Notes under the pieces: generated by a model | What the model saw: only the letters and a program-made list of their open reading frames with translations | What the model was told of the DNA's origin: nothing | The model's database searches: none | Part shown: positions 1 through 52,559 of the stretch, piece after piece | How the letters are laid out: every line of letters starts with the position of its first letter | Numbering within the stretch: the first letter of the stretch is position 1 | DNA from: Sulfuricurvum sp. | GTDB taxonomy: Bacteria; Campylobacterota; Campylobacteria; Campylobacterales; Sulfurimonadaceae | Direction: 5' to 3' | DNA length: 64,000 nt | Assembly: GCF_030691015.1 (NCBI RefSeq) | Contig: NZ_JAUYFF010000008.1 | Location: 124,001 to 188,000, forward strand | Position numbers and translations under genes: made by a program

Positions 1-1431
<1,431 letters not shown>

Positions 1432-1432
<1 letters not shown>

Positions 1433-7049: not shown

Positions 7050-7448
7050 TTATCCAACTTCTTGCATCTCTTCAGGCTCTTCTTGAACCAATTTTCCGAT
7101 ACCACGCTCGCTTAGGGGAATATCCTCGCGGAAGCTTTTGGCTTTGTAGGTCGGTGATCTGAGTTTCCCCTCTTTGTTGTGACCTAGTTTGTAGATCTCT
7201 TCGTTGCGGAAATGTTCGTCAAACTCAGCCGTAAACGGCATATCCCACGTAATACATCCGATACTCGGACAAATCGCCGCACATTGAGGATCATCGTAAA
7301 GTCCGACACATTCGACACATTTGTCAGGCTGAACGTAGTATTGTTTTTTCCCCGTCGGATTAGAAGTATCATCCACAATCGCATTGACCGGACATTGTTG
7401 CAAACACGCATCACAAGTGATGCAGGTATCGTTGATAATAACAGCCAT
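7050..7448 (-). CDS. 2[4Fe-4S] ferredoxin, FdxN-like, nif-associated
   Basis: This 132-residue ferredoxin carries two cluster motifs: CITCDACLQQCP (C-x2-C-x2-C-x3-C) and CVECVGLYDDPQCAAICP, where an insertion widens the second motif (C-x2-C-x8-C-x3-C), as in Allochromatium-type and FdxN ferredoxins. About 50 extra residues follow the clusters. These proteins donate electrons to nitrogenase or to cofactor assembly. It is the last gene of a five-gene minus-strand operon and overlaps the stop of nifX by one base. A paralogue lies two genes upstream at 7843. Confidence 0.9.
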   Translation of the reverse strand: MAVIINDTCITCDACLQQCPVNAIVDDTSNPTGKKQYYVQPDKCVECVGLYDDPQCAAICPSIGCITWDMPFTAEFDEHFRNEEIYKLGHNKEGKLRSPTYKAKSFREDIPLSERGIGKLVQEEPEEMQEVG

Positions 7449-7831
7449 TAGAGTAGTTCCTTATCTTTAGATGTGTGGACGATTCGAAGAAGCCACGGCG
7501 GCGGATTGCCCAATAAAAGTTCTTGAAGCTTTACAATCGTCTCATCGATTCGATCATTTTCACCGGAGCGTACCGGATAGATTTTCGAAGCCAGTACCAT
7601 TTTTGAAGCGGTAGGCCCTATCGCGGAGCAATAAAGAATATCCGCCTCTTGAATAGTACTGATTTTGTAGGCGAGTTTTTCGTGTTCATCCGCAATCGCA
7701 TCTTCCGAACTGTCGAGTGTCTTGACATATTCGGCACTCTCAGAGGTGATACGATAAAGCTCAAAGCTTTTCGACCAACCGAAATGTTGATTGACAAAGA
7801 CACCGTCAGTGGAAGCGAATGCGATGAGCAC
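7448..7831 (-). CDS. nifX: NifX-type FeMo-cofactor carrier protein
   Basis: This 127-residue protein belongs to the NifX/NifB-C family (dinitrogenase iron-molybdenum cofactor domain). The N-terminal ASTDGVFVNQHFGWSKSFELY is the family hallmark, with the His in NQHFG expected to contact the cofactor precursor. NifX holds NifB-co/VK-cluster during FeMo-cofactor synthesis in the cytoplasm. It sits between two paralogous ferredoxin genes in the nif accessory operon, 11 bases after the upstream one. The C-terminal 25 residues are less conserved. Confidence 0.88.
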   Translation of the reverse strand: MLIAFASTDGVFVNQHFGWSKSFELYRITSESAEYVKTLDSSEDAIADEHEKLAYKISTIQEADILYCSAIGPTASKMVLASKIYPVRSGENDRIDETIVKLQELLLGNPPPWLLRIVHTSKDKELL

Positions 7832-7842
7832 AACTTATCCTT

Positions 7843-8217
7843 TTAAACCGCTACCGCTTCACGCGCTTCACGCTGAGCTATAGTGATATCATCACGGAAC
7901 GTTTGCGGTGCTATTTCAGGTGAAAGGAGACCCCGTTTTTTCGACTCGCTGATAACATATTCTGAGCTGTTTACATAATAGTCGTTGAACTCGGCAGTGT
8001 ATGGCATATCCCAAACGATACACCCCTCAGTAGGACAGGCTGCGGCACACGCAGGTGTAGTTGCATGTCCGACACACTCGATACATTTTTCCGGTTTTAC
8101 GTAGGTATATTCCCAATCATCACGCGGTGAATCACCCTCACTCGCGATTGCGCTTACAGGACATTCGTCGATACACGCATCACAGTTAATACAAGAATCA
8201 GTAATCATTACGGCCAT
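7843..8217 (-). CDS. 2[4Fe-4S] ferredoxin, FdxN-like, nif-associated (second copy)
   Basis: This 124-residue ferredoxin has cluster motifs CINCDACIDECP and CIECVGHATTPACAAACP and a long C-terminal extension containing TFRDDITIAQ. It is clearly paralogous to the protein at 7050, including the WDMPYTAEF segment after the second cluster. ATG 8217 follows TAAGGAGT at good spacing; upstream in-frame codons overlap the previous gene. It is the third gene of the operon, likely an electron donor for nitrogenase or its cofactor machinery. Confidence 0.9.
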   Translation of the reverse strand: MAVMITDSCINCDACIDECPVSAIASEGDSPRDDWEYTYVKPEKCIECVGHATTPACAAACPTEGCIVWDMPYTAEFNDYYVNSSEYVISESKKRGLLSPEIAPQTFRDDITIAQREAREAVAV

Positions 8218-8227
8218 AATAGACTCC

Positions 8228-8674
8228 TTAGTTAGTTTTATACAATTGCTCTTTGCATTTTTCATACGAGGTACTATCAAGTAAGGGAGTGAGTTTAATA
8301 TCCACCGCTTTTAAAAGTAGTGTCACCTCACACCCCTCACATAAATGCATCCGCTCAAACGCATCGGTCGTAATGAGAGAGTTCATCATTCCGCATGGGG
8401 TATCGACACTCACTTCGCTAAGAACCAACCCCTTACGAAAATGTTGCAGTTCACCTACCAGATGGTTCTCTATCGAGACATTCCCCTCTTTGGTTTCAGT
8501 ACAGATCGCTATCGCCGCCTCTTGGATACGGCATTCGACCTCATCACCGATTCGAAGCCATTTAGGGAGTTGGGTTTTGAGCAGTTTCAAATCTACCCCG
8601 TTGACGTTGACGTTGATGCAGCTAAAGAACTGATCGCTTTTAATATCTTCAACCCGTGCCGCAAAGGTATTCAT
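8228..8674 (-). CDS. Two-domain TOBE/Mop molybdate-binding protein
   Basis: This 148-residue protein looks like two tandem Mop/TOBE domains (about 4-65 and 72-140), as in molbindins and the C-terminus of ModE. The pattern is N-x-F-x-A-x-V followed by ALLKAVDIKL-like ends. Such proteins bind molybdate or tungstate and act as cytoplasmic storage or regulators. No DNA-binding domain is present. Its place between a NifU-domain fusion and nifX suggests supply of molybdenum for FeMo-cofactor. Gaps to neighbours are about ten bases. Confidence 0.75.
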   Translation of the reverse strand: MNTFAARVEDIKSDQFFSCINVNVNGVDLKLLKTQLPKWLRIGDEVECRIQEAAIAICTETKEGNVSIENHLVGELQHFRKGLVLSEVSVDTPCGMMNSLITTDAFERMHLCEGCEVTLLLKAVDIKLTPLLDSTSYEKCKEQLYKTN

Positions 8675-8684
8675 GGTAAACCTC

Positions 8685-9575
8685 CTACCAGAGATAGATC
8701 ACAATTTTTTTATCAATGACCTTTTCAAACTGCTCCAGTATCATCCCCGCCGTAGACGTAGGCCCAAGGTGGCATCCCGAACACGCACCCAGATAGCGAA
8801 GCCAAATTTCAGGGGTATCTCCGCTCACATAATTGACAAGTGCTACCCCGCCACCATCACTTGCGAGGATAGGAGCCAGATTCTCTGTAATAACCGATTC
8901 TACTTTCGCGCGCTGAGAGGGTTCATCCATCATTCGAAACGTGACATTTATGTCGGTTGCTGCATTCTGGTTACTGACGTACGTGAGGAGTGCATGGGCT
9001 TGTGCCTCTCCTGCGTGGGCAGCTTTAATCATCCACTTCATCGAGTTTAGAACATCATCGTTGCGGAGTAAAATACCTAGTTTGAGTTGAGCGGTAGGCA
9101 TATTGGCCTCTGCGGCTACACTATAGTAACGGATCGATTGATCTTTATCGGCAGTGACACCGATCCCGTTTTCAAACATACCGCCTAGATAAAACGAAGC
9201 GACTTCATGACCTTGTTCCGCTGCACGATCAAAAAGCTTATATGCCGTTTGTATATCTTTAGCGACACCGAACCCTTTGACATACATCGTTCCGAGATTG
9301 ACCATAGCGTCCGTGTTCGTAGCGCTCAACCCTTCCCAAATCGATTTTGCCACGGCGAACTCTTTACGATCGTATGCTCCAATCGCGCTCTCCATCAATG
9401 ATTCTGCTTCCATTGTTCTCTCCTCATTTCGTTTCAAATTTATACGCAAATCGTCCATTGCCTCTTCATAACTCTCACCAAAACCTTTGACATCAGGGAA
9501 ATCACAGCTGTATATCTCATAGCCGTCCCCCTCTTCATTACTGAAATAGTGATAATGGGTTCGCAACTCTTCCAT
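8685..9575 (-). CDS. HicB-like / Sel1-repeat / NifU C-terminal domain fusion
   Basis: This 296-residue protein joins three modules. Residues 5-50 resemble a HicB-type fold (YEIYSCDFPDVKGFGESYEEA). Residues about 65-200 hold Sel1-like repeats (AMVNLGTMYVKGFGVAKD, AAEQGHEVASFYLGGMFENG). Residues 224-296 are a NifU C-terminal (Nfu) domain with the cluster motif C265-S-G-C268. Nfu domains carry a [4Fe-4S] cluster to apo-targets; Sel1 repeats mediate protein contacts. It is the first gene of the nif accessory operon, so it probably delivers clusters to nitrogenase proteins or ferredoxins. No N-terminal IscU-like scaffold is present. The start follows an AAAGAG-type site. Confidence 0.85.
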   Translation of the reverse strand: MEELRTHYHYFSNEEGDGYEIYSCDFPDVKGFGESYEEAMDDLRINLKRNEERTMEAESLMESAIGAYDRKEFAVAKSIWEGLSATNTDAMVNLGTMYVKGFGVAKDIQTAYKLFDRAAEQGHEVASFYLGGMFENGIGVTADKDQSIRYYSVAAEANMPTAQLKLGILLRNDDVLNSMKWMIKAAHAGEAQAHALLTYVSNQNAATDINVTFRMMDEPSQRAKVESVITENLAPILASDGGGVALVNYVSGDTPEIWLRYLGACSGCHLGPTSTAGMILEQFEKVIDKKIVIYLW

Positions 9576-9679
9576 ACTTTGCTCTTTTTACTCATTTATA
9601 GGATGTGATTGCAATTGCCGTTCTAAATCAAAGAATAAGATATGCATAAGCGTTTATATCAATGGACAAAGGAGCAGTA
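9576..9679. promoter_or_regulatory. Divergent intergenic region of nif accessory genes
   Basis: This 104-base region separates the minus-strand fusion-protein operon from the plus-strand NifX-like operon and must hold both promoters. A GATTGCAATTGC stretch near 9607-9618 contains the palindrome TTGCAA/ATTGCAAT. I found no GG-N10-GC pair at exact spacing on either strand. AAAGGAG at 9668-9674 is the ribosome site for the ATG at 9680. Confidence 0.35.
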
Positions 9680-10075
9680 ATGATCGCCATCCCTGTGGAA
9701 CAAAACAGCGATAATCCTATGAGTACAAAACTCTTCGGTAACGCCAAATTTTTCGCCTTAGTTGATCCAAAAAACAAACACTACACGATTATCCCCAATG
9801 AGGGGTGCGGCAACGGTATCAAAACCGCTCATTATCTGTTAGAGCAAGGGGCGACGTCCGCTTTGTACGGATTTTTAGGAGACGGTCCTTTTCATGTGAT
9901 GGTACGTGAGGGGATGGAAGTGTATTGGCTCGGGAAAGAGACAATGGCGCTTAATCAAGCGATTGAGGCCGCCTTCTCTGAATCTCTGGTTCGGGTTACC
10001 CCTGAAAATGCCGATAGTTATCTCGATCCGGGTACCAATGCGGGTGCGTGTGAATGCGGGTGTAGTCATGAGTGA
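9680..10075 (+). CDS. NifX/NifB-C family protein with Cys-rich tail
   Basis: This 131-residue protein has the dinitrogenase iron-molybdenum cofactor fold (IAIPVEQ...STKLFGNAKFFALVD), with the usual glycine-rich middle (ALYGFLGDGPF). It ends in GACECGCSHE, a Cys/His-rich tail that could bind metal. ATG 9680 is preferred to 9662 because AAAGGAG lies six bases before it. Its stop overlaps the next gene by eight bases. It probably binds a cofactor or cluster intermediate during nitrogenase assembly. It differs from the NifX at 7448 and lacks the NQHFG motif. Confidence 0.8.
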   Translation: MIAIPVEQNSDNPMSTKLFGNAKFFALVDPKNKHYTIIPNEGCGNGIKTAHYLLEQGATSALYGFLGDGPFHVMVREGMEVYWLGKETMALNQAIEAAFSESLVRVTPENADSYLDPGTNAGACECGCSHE

Positions 10076-10295
10076 GATCATTACCAATGAAATGGAAGAG
10101 ATTCGTCGACTTATCGTTGAGACCGTCGCCAAGCGCAACGCTCTCAAAACCGAGATGGCACAATGGTATGAAGCGCACAGTAAACGGTTTGAACATACCA
10201 ATGAACTCATCACGCTCGATTCAACCCTCAGCGAGCTAGACAGTCACTATAAGCGGCTGTGGGATTACCATAATACAAAACCTATCGCATCTTAA
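10068..10295 (+). CDS. Small helical protein, nif-associated, unknown
   Basis: This 75-residue protein begins in the overlap ATGAGTGA with the preceding NifX-like gene, so the two are likely coupled. It is charged and predicted largely helical, with a heptad-like pattern from about 5 to 66. I recognise no family. It contains no cysteine and no membrane segment. Location suggests a role in nitrogen fixation. Confidence 0.7.
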   Translation: MSEIITNEMEEIRRLIVETVAKRNALKTEMAQWYEAHSKRFEHTNELITLDSTLSELDSHYKRLWDYHNTKPIAS

Positions 10296-10305
10296 AGGAA
10301 AAACT

Positions 10306-10785
10306 ATGAATGAAAATCTACGCAATGACCTCATCAAACACGCCAAAGTAGCGTTTGAGCGGGCATGTACGTTACGGGAAAATGAGCGAATAGAAGTCTA
10401 TCTGAATGAGGGCACAGTAAAAGTAAGCGATGTTTTGGGAGAAGATGAAAACATCCTTTATGGCCAAAATCGTATCTTGTGTTATCAGGTATGGGGGCAT
10501 GATTATCTCGAAGAGGAGATCCGCACATGGATCGATCAGGCCCGAGCCGAGATCAGCCCTAAGCCGCTGGAAGAGAGTATTATCGAAACGCTGAACGCCG
10601 TTGCAGCGTCCAAAGGGCTAACCCCTGAAGAGATCACCTCCGCAGAAGTATTTGCCAACCTGAAAATGGATCAGTTAGAGCAAATCGAACACGCCATCAT
10701 CGAATACTGGTGGCATAATAAAGAGGTTGAAAATGCCAAGTCGCTGGCATTGGAGCAAATCAACGAAGCACTAAAAGGGTTATAA
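10306..10785 (+). CDS. Hypothetical cytoplasmic protein, nif-associated
   Basis: This 159-residue acidic protein is unknown to me. It is predicted mainly helical, with a conserved-looking aromatic patch (EYWWHNKE) near residue 138 and LTPEEITSAEVFANL before it. It follows the 75-residue gene by ten bases with an AAAGGAAAA ribosome site, so it is the third gene of the NifX-like operon. No cofactor motif is visible. Confidence 0.75.
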   Translation: MNENLRNDLIKHAKVAFERACTLRENERIEVYLNEGTVKVSDVLGEDENILYGQNRILCYQVWGHDYLEEEIRTWIDQARAEISPKPLEESIIETLNAVAASKGLTPEEITSAEVFANLKMDQLEQIEHAIIEYWWHNKEVENAKSLALEQINEALKGL

Positions 10786-15066: not shown

Positions 15067-15486
15067 TTATTCAGCCCGAATCTGCAAGCATCCCTTTTCC
15101 AGACAGTTGATTTTCGGCATTGGTTTGACATAGCGTTCCAACACTTCGGATACTCTGTCCGCATCAAACCCGCACAGTTTCTCCGTTCCGATCACCATCA
15201 GCGGGCGACGGATCAAAATCGGATTAGCCATCAGCAACTCCATGGCAGAGCCTTCATCCAGTGTTTCAGGAAAAATCTCGCCGTTTTTGATCGCGGGGGC
15301 GGCAGGATTAAACCAATCGGCTACCTTTTTACCCTCCATAAAACTGCGAAGAGTATCAGCATCCAAACCGTGTTCGAGAAGGTTTCGCTCAATGAGGGTA
15401 CAGCCACTTTGACGGAGTATCTGCTTTTGCTTGGCATTGGCGGCACAAAAAGGTTTTTCATAAAAGACCACTAACTTTATCATCAT
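15067..15486 (-). CDS. NifO/ArsC-like nitrogenase-associated protein
   Basis: This 139-residue protein has the ArsC/Spx thioredoxin-like fold. It begins with VVFYEKPFCAANAKQK, where a single Cys replaces the usual CxxC, and contains ILIRRPLMVIG, the substrate-loop region. It matches the family called nitrogenase-associated protein (NifO type) in nif clusters, whose biochemical role is poorly defined. The start codon overlaps the stop of the 80-residue gene upstream (ATGATG). It is the last gene of the nifQ operon. The C-terminus carries two extra cysteines (CLEKGC). Confidence 0.8.
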   Translation of the reverse strand: MMIKLVVFYEKPFCAANAKQKQILRQSGCTLIERNLLEHGLDADTLRSFMEGKKVADWFNPAAPAIKNGEIFPETLDEGSAMELLMANPILIRRPLMVIGTEKLCGFDADRVSEVLERYVKPMPKINCLEKGCLQIRAE

Positions 15487-15725
15487 TCCATCCCGATGAG
15501 CGTACGCCCTTTTTTGTTCAGATAGAAAGTATCGAATCCATCGTCTCCCGCCGTCATGCATTCACCCAAATACCCCTCGTCGTAGAGATTACTGATGATG
15601 CTACGCACCTCATCCGTATCCATCTGCGCATATTCGGCGATATCGACCGCCTCGTAGATATTGTATTCGATCTCGTCACTCAGCGAAAAAATCGCCTGCA
15701 TAACCCGTAGTGTTGATTCATTCAT
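15483..15725 (-). CDS. Small winged-helix-like protein in the nifQ operon
   Basis: This 80-residue protein resembles a winged helix-turn-helix (helix AQMDTDEVRSIISNLYDEGYL, then a wing ending YLNKKGRTLI). It could bind DNA or act as a small adaptor. It lies 24 bases after the NifQ-like gene and overlaps the NifO-like start, so all three are co-transcribed. I do not know a named family. Confidence 0.7.
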   Translation of the reverse strand: MNESTLRVMQAIFSLSDEIEYNIYEAVDIAEYAQMDTDEVRSIISNLYDEGYLGECMTAGDDGFDTFYLNKKGRTLIGME

Positions 15726-15749
15726 GATATTTTCCTTTAAACCGTAATT

Positions 15750-16079
15750 TCACGCACTCGCCTCCGCGATCAAACAGGTAAAGCAGTGCTCTTGATCATG
15801 ACACGTCGCACACGCGGGGGCAACTTTTCCGATGGCGTCGTAGAGAAATTTTTTCCAGAGTTTATCTTTGGGCTTCAGCGATGCAAGACGAGGGAAATGT
15901 GTAGCCATATAGGCACCCATTTGTACACGGCTTTTAAAGCCCAAATCCTGATAAAGATGGTTCATTTCCAGTGATTTTTTAGCGATATGCGGTGCAATCA
16001 CATATCGTGCTTCATCATCTATCGCGTATTTTTTCAAATAATCTTCTATCTCACGGCATAAAGTATCCAGTTCGCTCAT
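15750..16079 (-). CDS. nifQ: NifQ-like molybdenum donor, short form
   Basis: NifQ delivers a Mo-Fe-S unit for FeMo-cofactor. This 109-residue protein matches the NifQ C-terminal part: HLYQDLGFKSRVQMGAYM, HFPRLA and KLWKKFLYDAI are family signatures. Usual NifQ is about 170-200 residues with a C-x4-C-x2-C-x5-C motif. Here the cysteines are C90, C93, C99 and C102 (C-x2-C-x5-C-x2-C), so the first is missing and a new one follows the last. ATG 16079 follows AAGGAAAAGG. A candidate sigma-54 promoter lies 32 bases upstream. Confidence 0.82.
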   Translation of the reverse strand: MSELDTLCREIEDYLKKYAIDDEARYVIAPHIAKKSLEMNHLYQDLGFKSRVQMGAYMATHFPRLASLKPKDKLWKKFLYDAIGKVAPACATCHDQEHCFTCLIAEASA

Positions 16080-16110
16080 GGCCTTTTCCTTGGACGGTTT
16101 AAAAAGATAA

Positions 16111-16126
16111 TGCAATTTTCGTGCAC
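16111..16126 (-). promoter_or_regulatory. Candidate sigma-54 promoter of the nifQ operon
   Basis: On the minus strand the site reads GTGCACGAAAATTGCA. Compared with the consensus TGGCACGNNNNTTGCA it differs only in its first two bases, keeps the -12 GC and has exact spacing. The -24 GG is TG here, which weakens it. Transcription would start about 20 bases before nifQ. RpoN is encoded at 51294-52559. Confidence 0.55.
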
Positions 16127-50544: not shown

Positions 50545-51294
50545 TCATCTCGGAAGGATTTTTTCCTGCCCTATCCGATAGAGGGCAAAATCGTATTTCA
50601 GGGGGTCAAGGGGATCAAATAGTTTAAGAGCTTCGGTCAGTTCGATAGCGGCTCTCATATCACACTGAGACCTGCTTAAAAGCCCAAGCGCGCGTGAAAC
50701 GTTAAAAGTATGGGTATCAAGCGGCATAATCAAATCGCTTTGACTCACCCCGCTCCATAATCCCATATCGAGTTCGCATTTGCGTACCATCCACCGCAGG
50801 TACATCATCCACCGTTTCATGGCTGAGGCTTTTGTTATGGAGACAATCGGTTTTCCGATCAAAAATTCATACCCTTTGGAACGATACGGGTTAAGGTCAT
50901 AAAGAGATGTTATCAATGTTGATACTCCGCCGATAACACCATCTGACGAATACCCATCTTTAAAGGCCTTCTCAGCCCCGCCAGAAGCTTTTAAGTCCCT
51001 AAGGGTACAAAACCATTGAATAATATCTTCGCTACTCTGAAAGCGATAATATTTCCCCTCTAACTGTGAACGTAAAACCGATTCTTCGCAATCTGTTAAA
51101 TCCTCATTTAAAGAGGTTAAAAAAGCAACAATAGCTTTGGCACTCCCGTACGAGAATAGAGCACACGTCAGGGCATGATGCTGATCCATAGTGGTTCTGG
51201 CTACCATCAGAGGATCGGGACGTTCGGCACACAACTCATCTTTATGGTTTCGAGCGGCTACCTGCTCATCGAGATACGCTTTTAAATGGTTCAC
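50545..51294 (-). CDS. TIGR02757 (DUF2400) family protein
   Basis: This 249-residue protein belongs to a family of unknown function seen mainly in Bacteroidetes and epsilonproteobacteria. MVARTTMDQHHALTCALFSYGSAKAIVAFL and MYLRWMVRKCELDMGLW with PLDTHTFNVSRALGLL are its signatures; the last part recalls DNA-glycosylase HhH-like folds. It overlaps rpoN by one base. Confidence 0.85.
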   Translation of the reverse strand: MNHLKAYLDEQVAARNHKDELCAERPDPLMVARTTMDQHHALTCALFSYGSAKAIVAFLTSLNEDLTDCEESVLRSQLEGKYYRFQSSEDIIQWFCTLRDLKASGGAEKAFKDGYSSDGVIGGVSTLITSLYDLNPYRSKGYEFLIGKPIVSITKASAMKRWMMYLRWMVRKCELDMGLWSGVSQSDLIMPLDTHTFNVSRALGLLSRSQCDMRAAIELTEALKLFDPLDPLKYDFALYRIGQEKILPR

Positions 51295-52559
51295 TAACGC
51301 CCTAAAAGATAAAGCTGTTTACGCTCGCTGGAGCCTGCGATATTGAGCTGTTTACGGTATTTTGCGATCGTTCGGCGCACCATCGTGATTTTAAATTTCT
51401 CTTGGATCATTTCCAAAAGTTTCATATCGCTGAGAGGTTTTTTATGGGATTCGTTTTTGACCAGTTCCGCCACATAATCTTTGATTGCGGCATTGGAGAC
51501 ATCTTCATCGATAGCGGTGGTGAAAAAATCTTTCATCGGATAAATGCCGCGATCACAGGCAATGTATTTGTTAGCGATGGCACGTGAAATAGTGGAGGGA
51601 TTATGACCGAATTCATCGGCAAGCGTTTTAAGGGTGAGCGGTTTGATCGCACCCCCCGTAAAAAAATCGTACTGATATTCGACGATCATCAATCCCACTT
51701 TATAGAGGGTCGCTTTACGCATTTCCAACGCATCGACTAGGCTTTTTGCCTCTTTAAGCTTTTCACGGACAAACGGATGATCGACGCCGTACGCGGCATC
51801 AATGGTGACACTCGGATAATATTGATCATTAAGTCTTACCTCGATCCCCTCTTCGGGATCATTGTGAATCATCAAATCGGGAATCACTTGCTGAGAATCT
51901 TCCAAATAATCAATCGCAGGGGGATTTTTAAAACTCCCGACTACCCGCATCGCCTCTTCAAATGCACTCTCTTTACGATAGCGCCCCAACTCGTCCATGT
52001 GGGTAATCATTTCACGGGCAAGATCATATCCCGCGTCGCTGATCGAGGCAGATTCAAGCTGAAATAGAAACGATTCACTGACGTTGCGCGCACCGATCCC
52101 TACCGGTTCGACATGGATAAATCGGAGACGGATTTTTTCAAATTGTTCCGAACTAATCCCCTGAGCTGAACAAAAAGCGGTGTCATCCCCCTCATAATAT
52201 CCCCCCTCATCGAGGTTTTCAATGATATGTCTGGCAATGAGCTGTGATACGGGGGTAGGAAACAGTGAACCGTCAACCTGCTCTTCGAGTATTTCATACA
52301 AACTTTTATGCTGAATCGTAAGGGCTTCAATCGCTTCGCTGTGGGAATTTTGGACATAGCCGTATTGAATTTTTTTCGGGATTCTCGATTCAAAGGACTC
52401 TTCATATCCCGATTTAATATCGATAAGAGGGTTCCCCTCAACAAACGGAGCCATCGCTTCACCCAAATCACTCAGACTCGATTGAAGAATCGGAAGCCAG
52501 TTGCGCAGTGTGTTGGAAAGCTTATTTTTTAGCTCAACGCTTGTTTTTACCCGTAGCAT
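51294..52559 (-). CDS. rpoN: RNA polymerase sigma-54 factor
   Basis: RpoN directs RNA polymerase to -24/-12 promoters of flagellar and nif genes, with an AAA activator. It has 421 residues. Region I (about 8-50) is a divergent glutamine-poor form (VELKNKLSNTLRNWLPILQ), the core-binding region follows, and the C-terminus has an HTH (TLKTLADEFGHNPSTISRA) and the RpoN box VRRTIAKYRKQL. It lies six bases after lptB, the lptB-rpoN order being common in proteobacteria. Confidence 0.95.
   Translation of the reverse strand: MLRVKTSVELKNKLSNTLRNWLPILQSSLSDLGEAMAPFVEGNPLIDIKSGYEESFESRIPKKIQYGYVQNSHSEAIEALTIQHKSLYEILEEQVDGSLFPTPVSQLIARHIIENLDEGGYYEGDDTAFCSAQGISSEQFEKIRLRFIHVEPVGIGARNVSESFLFQLESASISDAGYDLAREMITHMDELGRYRKESAFEEAMRVVGSFKNPPAIDYLEDSQQVIPDLMIHNDPEEGIEVRLNDQYYPSVTIDAAYGVDHPFVREKLKEAKSLVDALEMRKATLYKVGLMIVEYQYDFFTGGAIKPLTLKTLADEFGHNPSTISRAIANKYIACDRGIYPMKDFFTTAIDEDVSNAAIKDYVAELVKNESHKKPLSDMKLLEMIQEKFKITMVRRTIAKYRKQLNIAGSSERKQLYLLGR

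Follow-up and report, generated by a model that had tools for sequence, protein, structure and literature searches.

The DNA analysed here (the window) is a 64,000-nt stretch from a diazotrophic Sulfuricurvum sp., and all coordinates refer to it. On its minus strand, a single open reading frame of 296 aa (8685–9575) encodes a HicB-like N-terminal module with a beta-beta-beta-alpha arrangement (residues 1–51, 9423–9575), a Sel1 helical solenoid (residues 55–202, 8970–9413), and an Nfu domain (PF01106; residues 225–288, 8712–8903) that contains a putative cluster-binding motif, CSGC (residues 265–268, 8772–8783). The first-pass annotation had proposed that these parts are joined in one frame, and domain searches together with profile and structure comparison confirmed this. 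Pfam returned the expected Sel1 repeats (PF08238, E = 5e-18, above cut-off) and PF01106/NifU domain (E = 3e-9, 37.3 bits, cut-off 27), but did not call HicB, for which support came from hhalign and Foldseek. Sel1 proteins in the PDB matched the fusion by sequence (best E = 1e-38), and in the AF2 model the Sel1 helices had a pLDDT of mostly about 90, with the Nfu region modelled at low confidence (pLDDT 52–75, shallow alignment). Purifying selection acts on the coding sequence, with pN/pS values of 0.11 for the HicB-like part, 0.21 for Sel1 and 0.09 for Nfu; since gene order is also kept in many genomes, the fusion is not a chance open reading frame.

As had been claimed, the fusion gene heads an operon with a Mop/TOBE protein, a NifX and two ferredoxins, which is tightly packed: adjacent genes are about 10 bases apart or overlap by 1 base, and all are on the same strand. 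By profile match, these are a Mop/TOBE molybdate-binding-like protein (8228–8674; the next gene in 17 loci), a YfhL-like 2[4Fe-4S] ferredoxin (7843–8217, start taken at MAVMITD), a NifX paralog, NifX2 (7448–7831), and a second YfhL-like ferredoxin (7050–7448). NifX2 scored 108.9 bits, just below the NifX cut-off of 112, and in a tree the fusion-linked NifX2 proteins formed a clade of their own, separate from the NifX encoded in nifENX (100% SH-aLRT). A match to the Nitro_FeMo-Co family lies at 9662–10075. The genome (2.33 Mb) has nifH, nifD and nifK together on one contig; nifE, nifN, another NifX and a NifX-associated protein are on the same contig as the window, about 15–20 kb ahead of it.

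A sigma-54-type −24/−12 element, TAGAACGGCAATTGCA (9610–9625, minus strand), lies 34 bases upstream of the fusion start codon, and fits the sigma-54 consensus. The pattern TAGAAC-N5-TTGCA was found at five sites genome-wide, four of which precede nifH, nifB, a second nifU (nifU2) and the fusion gene (nifB and nifU2 identified by sequence reading and a PF01106 match), at a spacing of 34–35 nt for nifH, nifU2 and the fusion, and 74 nt for nifB. A −24/−12 element in common with nif genes, looked for as a sign of the nif sigma-54 regulon, is thus present, and it is retained upstream of orthologues in Sulfuricurvum and its neighbours. An rpoN gene is located within the window (51294–52559), and no exact NifA site (TGT-N10-ACA) was found within 400 bp upstream of the fusion gene.

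Since PDB matches of the full-length model were mostly Sel1 proteins, the N-terminal domain was modelled on its own (residues 1–54, 54 aa, AlphaFold pLDDT 89), and its six top Foldseek matches in the PDB were all of the HicB family (2dsy, 6g26 twice, 6g1c, 6hpb and 6u0i), with probabilities of 0.89–1.00 yet E values of only 0.15–0.25, the domain being short. Comparison of 31 aligned fusion N-termini with Campylobacterota HicB antitoxins by hhalign gave a probability of 95% (E = 2e-8); neither the reversed control nor any of ten unrelated local families exceeded 1.7%. One HicB-type protein of Campylobacterota starts with NLEYYLNLPYEI, resembling KDLEYYLSLDYP, the start of the longer fusion N-termini. 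Judged by profile and modelled fold, the homology of the N-terminus to HicB is real. The module shares its beta-beta-beta-alpha fold and profile match with the N-domain of HicB antitoxins, but differs from these proteins in that the C-terminal DNA-binding domain is absent, Sel1 repeats following directly and leading into Nfu, and in that no HicA toxin was found in the genome (PF07927 search, E 0.01). Because HicA and the DNA-binding tail are both missing, the module is regarded as a borrowed fold and not as an antitoxin, and a toxin–antitoxin reading of the fusion was rejected for want of HicA. The fusion is a case of an antitoxin domain reused outside toxin–antitoxin systems.

The HicB-like part is present in 32 of 63 copies of the fusion family, and a tree of the remaining part required eight gains or losses of it, so that on the phylogeny the part is optional and repeatedly lost; the earlier HicB assignment stands as homology, but neither as an antitoxin nor as a fixed component. 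The nearest relative, from a S. kujiense MAG, is 95% identical over the shared part and is missing exactly the HicB-like segment; its promoter region is retained, as is the start downstream of the missing segment. A separate upstream HicB gene in HicB-less relatives was also considered, and none was seen among the upstream frames examined; the segment is absent in the S. kujiense locus (L012) and in L013.

The start retained by HicB-less relatives corresponds to the ATG at codon 55 of the fusion (9411–9413, minus strand), which is a likely internal start. A Shine-Dalgarno-like AGGAG (codons 51–52, 9420–9424, minus strand) is placed about 6 bases upstream of this ATG in the fused Sulfuricurvum genes, and xAG-GAG is kept in 10 of 10 of them, with codon 51 encoding E, K or Q, while their synonymous sites diverge widely (pS about 0.65). 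This conservation ahead of codon 55 makes a second, HicB-less product from internal translation likely, and purifying selection on the HicB-like part suggests that the long product is made too. In genus g6, AGGAGGAG occupies the internal Shine-Dalgarno position in four relatives. In the g6 loci L029–L032, about 11 bases separate the end of the sigma-54-like element from the HicB-like start codon, a spacing from which the transcript is predicted to begin at or beside the HicB-like ATG, leaving the long form leaderless and the internal start with its AGGAGGAG.

Relatives were searched for in 397 Campylobacterota genomes, and were counted only if matched through to the end of Nfu. They were found in 53 genomes, among them members of families f1, f4, f7 and f10, and the closest named relatives are Sulfuricurvum. 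The architecture is not unique but widespread in Campylobacterota. Matches of nifD/E type were present in 78 of the 397 genomes (73 above the nifD cut-off), and relatives were found in 53 of these 78 and in none of the 319 negative genomes (Fisher 5e-47, kinship ignored). Among 349 Pseudomonadota genomes, 38 of them with nifD above cut-off, no Sel1+Nfu relative was found, the only matches being Sel1-only at the 1e-24 limit; a plasmid collection gave no match to the linker and Nfu part, and viral contigs gave no fusion relative. No fusion relative was found in 21 Campylobacterota genomes with nifD above cut-off, and in those read, a second NifX and a ferredoxin persist; the fusion is therefore neither essential nor strictly needed by NifX2. 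Three nif-positive loci (L217, L218 and L219, in G350, G232 and G379; genera g28 and g55) have a ferredoxin–NifX pair in a similar slot and no fusion. For G239, the contig data stop just upstream of Mop, at the expected position of the fusion. MAG STA_65 has the locus on two contigs (L008 and L009) with equal identity to the query, either an assembly duplication or two copies.

Across 48 loci, NifX2 was located downstream of the fusion on the same strand in 47, the sole exception being at the end of a 3-kb contig. NifQ is a neighbour in 23 fusion loci, and a ferredoxin in 30. One layout, that of the window, is fusion–Mop–ferredoxin–NifX2–ferredoxin, and the other is NafY-like/(ferredoxin or CowN-like)–fusion–NifX2–FprA–(NifQ or NifB–NifV), usually divergent from nifEN (names such as NafY-like, CowN-like and FprA being given by sequence reading and clustering, not family searches). 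The first-pass annotation had suggested that the Sel1 repeats could dock nitrogenase proteins; this linkage points to NifX2, the ferredoxins and NifQ as candidate partners, rather than NifH. The claim that the fusion is a nif accessory protein is upheld by its nif-only occurrence, its operon and the shared promoter element.

Nfu domains transport [4Fe-4S] clusters from scaffold to client. The first-pass annotation had named an Nfu domain with CxxC, and its cysteines are intact: all 63 copies have CxGC, and 62 have a DGG or DSG motif. In a tree with NifU C-terminal domains and stand-alone Nfu proteins (few columns, long branches), the Nfu domains of the fusions formed one clade (support 100/100), nearer to the NifU C-terminal domain, with the stand-alone Nfu group beyond a further long branch (2.6). 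From this monophyly the fusion family probably had a single origin, perhaps from the NifU C-terminal domain. The Campylobacterota NifU C-terminal domain, closest in the tree, has the pattern DGG...GxCxGC...STxT in common with the fusion, but the fusion lacks both the IscU-like scaffold domain and the [2Fe-2S] domain of NifU, and instead has Sel1 repeats with or without the HicB-like module. The model for NifU proper (TIGR02000) was accordingly not matched (22.8 bits against 273.3, C-terminal part only), and neither was that for NfuA (TIGR03341; 23.1 bits against 269.35, residues 217–269 only), which is defined by an A-type domain plus Nfu. Stand-alone Nfu, YutI and NfuA carriers have an Nfu domain with CxxC, as in the fusion, whereas the local stand-alone Nfu group has no adaptor domains. 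The Sel1-like adaptor proteins HcpC, LceB and SEL1L share the solenoid fold, but are not nif-linked, and the descriptions of the matched entries give no Fe-S domain. In the nif region of A. vinelandii, the LRV protein also combines a repeat solenoid with an Fe-S site, as an analogy only, since its repeats are of the leucine-rich-variant type and its N-terminal 4Fe-4S domain is unrelated. Because the genome also encodes a stand-alone Nfu, on another contig, as well as two complete NifU proteins, the fusion supplements these and does not replace them.

We favour, with moderate confidence, a reading in which the fusion is an Nfu-type carrier of [4Fe-4S] clusters that is dedicated to nif, has its Sel1 repeats as a docking arm, and serves the cofactor-assembly branch of NifX2, the ferredoxins and NifQ. 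We infer this role from gene linkage and from published functions of NifU, YutI and NifX: NifU of A. vinelandii supplies [4Fe-4S] clusters to NifQ (PMC11605450), in P. polymyxa, nitrogenase is supported by the Nfu-type protein YutI, for which nifU of K. oxytoca or nfuA of E. coli can substitute (PMC8038749), and NifX carries NifB-co to NifEN (PMC13128457). The Nfu domain, probably dimeric, would bridge a [4Fe-4S] cluster through CxGC, receive it from NifU/NifS, and pass it to apo-proteins of the adjacent branch, with YfhL-type ferredoxins, NifQ and possibly NifB as candidate clients, working alongside the dedicated NifX2. Client specificity would come from the Sel1 solenoid as docking arm, and the HicB-like module, a captured antitoxin N-domain, may serve only in oligomerisation or protein contact, and would be omitted through the internal translation start or by deletion. 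Some relatives are without most of the Sel1 part (e.g. 139–159 aa) and retain Nfu; by comparison of these sequences, Sel1-mediated docking is dispensable there. A more elaborate version is put forward tentatively: the fusion together with NifX2 would be a dedicated relay, feeding FeMo-co assembly with clusters or with cofactor intermediates, and two translation products, with and without the HicB-like module, would set the oligomeric state of the carrier.

A scaffold for NifX2, in which the fusion would hold NifX2 (with NifB-co or another intermediate) near NifEN or the ferredoxins and Nfu would be a binding platform or hold a structural cluster without delivering it, draws on the almost invariable association with a dedicated NifX paralog, the presence of a solenoid and the divergent placement of nifEN in many genomes; it is unlikely, however, as CxGC and DGG/DSG are conserved as expected of a labile-cluster carrier, and the shortened relatives keep Nfu without most Sel1 repeats. 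Less probable again is a redox or oxygen sensor, in which loss of the CxGC cluster would alter Sel1-mediated contacts to protect or regulate nitrogenase: the FprA-type flavoproteins and CowN-like genes read in many loci are suggestive of protection, but the closest domain family, the NifU C-terminal domain, is a carrier, and no regulatory domain is present except the HicB-like one, itself without a DNA-binding tail. An accidental fusion of a HicB antitoxin domain with no function in nitrogen fixation, which HicB homology, patchy occurrence and repeated loss might suggest, is very improbable given a genome without HicA, the missing tail and a HicB-like part that is under strong purifying selection. 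The fusion is rated as a putative Nfu carrier with adaptors.

No description of a Sel1–NifU or HicB–nif protein was found in the open-access literature, in agreement with the statement of the first-pass annotation that no protein of this domain order was known, and the family is apparently undescribed; each of the domains belongs to a known kind, but no account was found in that literature of their combination, of the restriction to nif genomes, of the association with NifX2 or of a HicB module that can be absent. The routing of iron-sulfur clusters to nitrogenase assembly proteins is partly known, mostly from work in Azotobacter and Klebsiella. A carrier that is nif-only, so far seen only in Campylobacterota, and that would have its own docking arm and a partner NifX, is a concrete candidate for routing clusters to specific clients, and might be of use in engineering nitrogenase assembly.

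Further genes were noted around the operon. Divergent from it, and after the Nitro_FeMo-Co gene, two conserved genes of 75 and 159 aa (10068–10785, plus strand) form a pair kept in about 18–20 loci. A short NifQ (PF04891, E = 2e-18) is encoded at 15750–16115 (minus strand), adjoined by a small ArsC-like, possibly NifO-like protein (15067–15561, minus strand; by reading only), making a possible nifO–nifQ pair at 15067–16115. A Campylobacterota-type NifS cysteine desulfurase (TIGR03403) is encoded at 248–1432 (plus strand), about 7 kb from the fusion, and NifS is found nearby in about 15 fusion loci.
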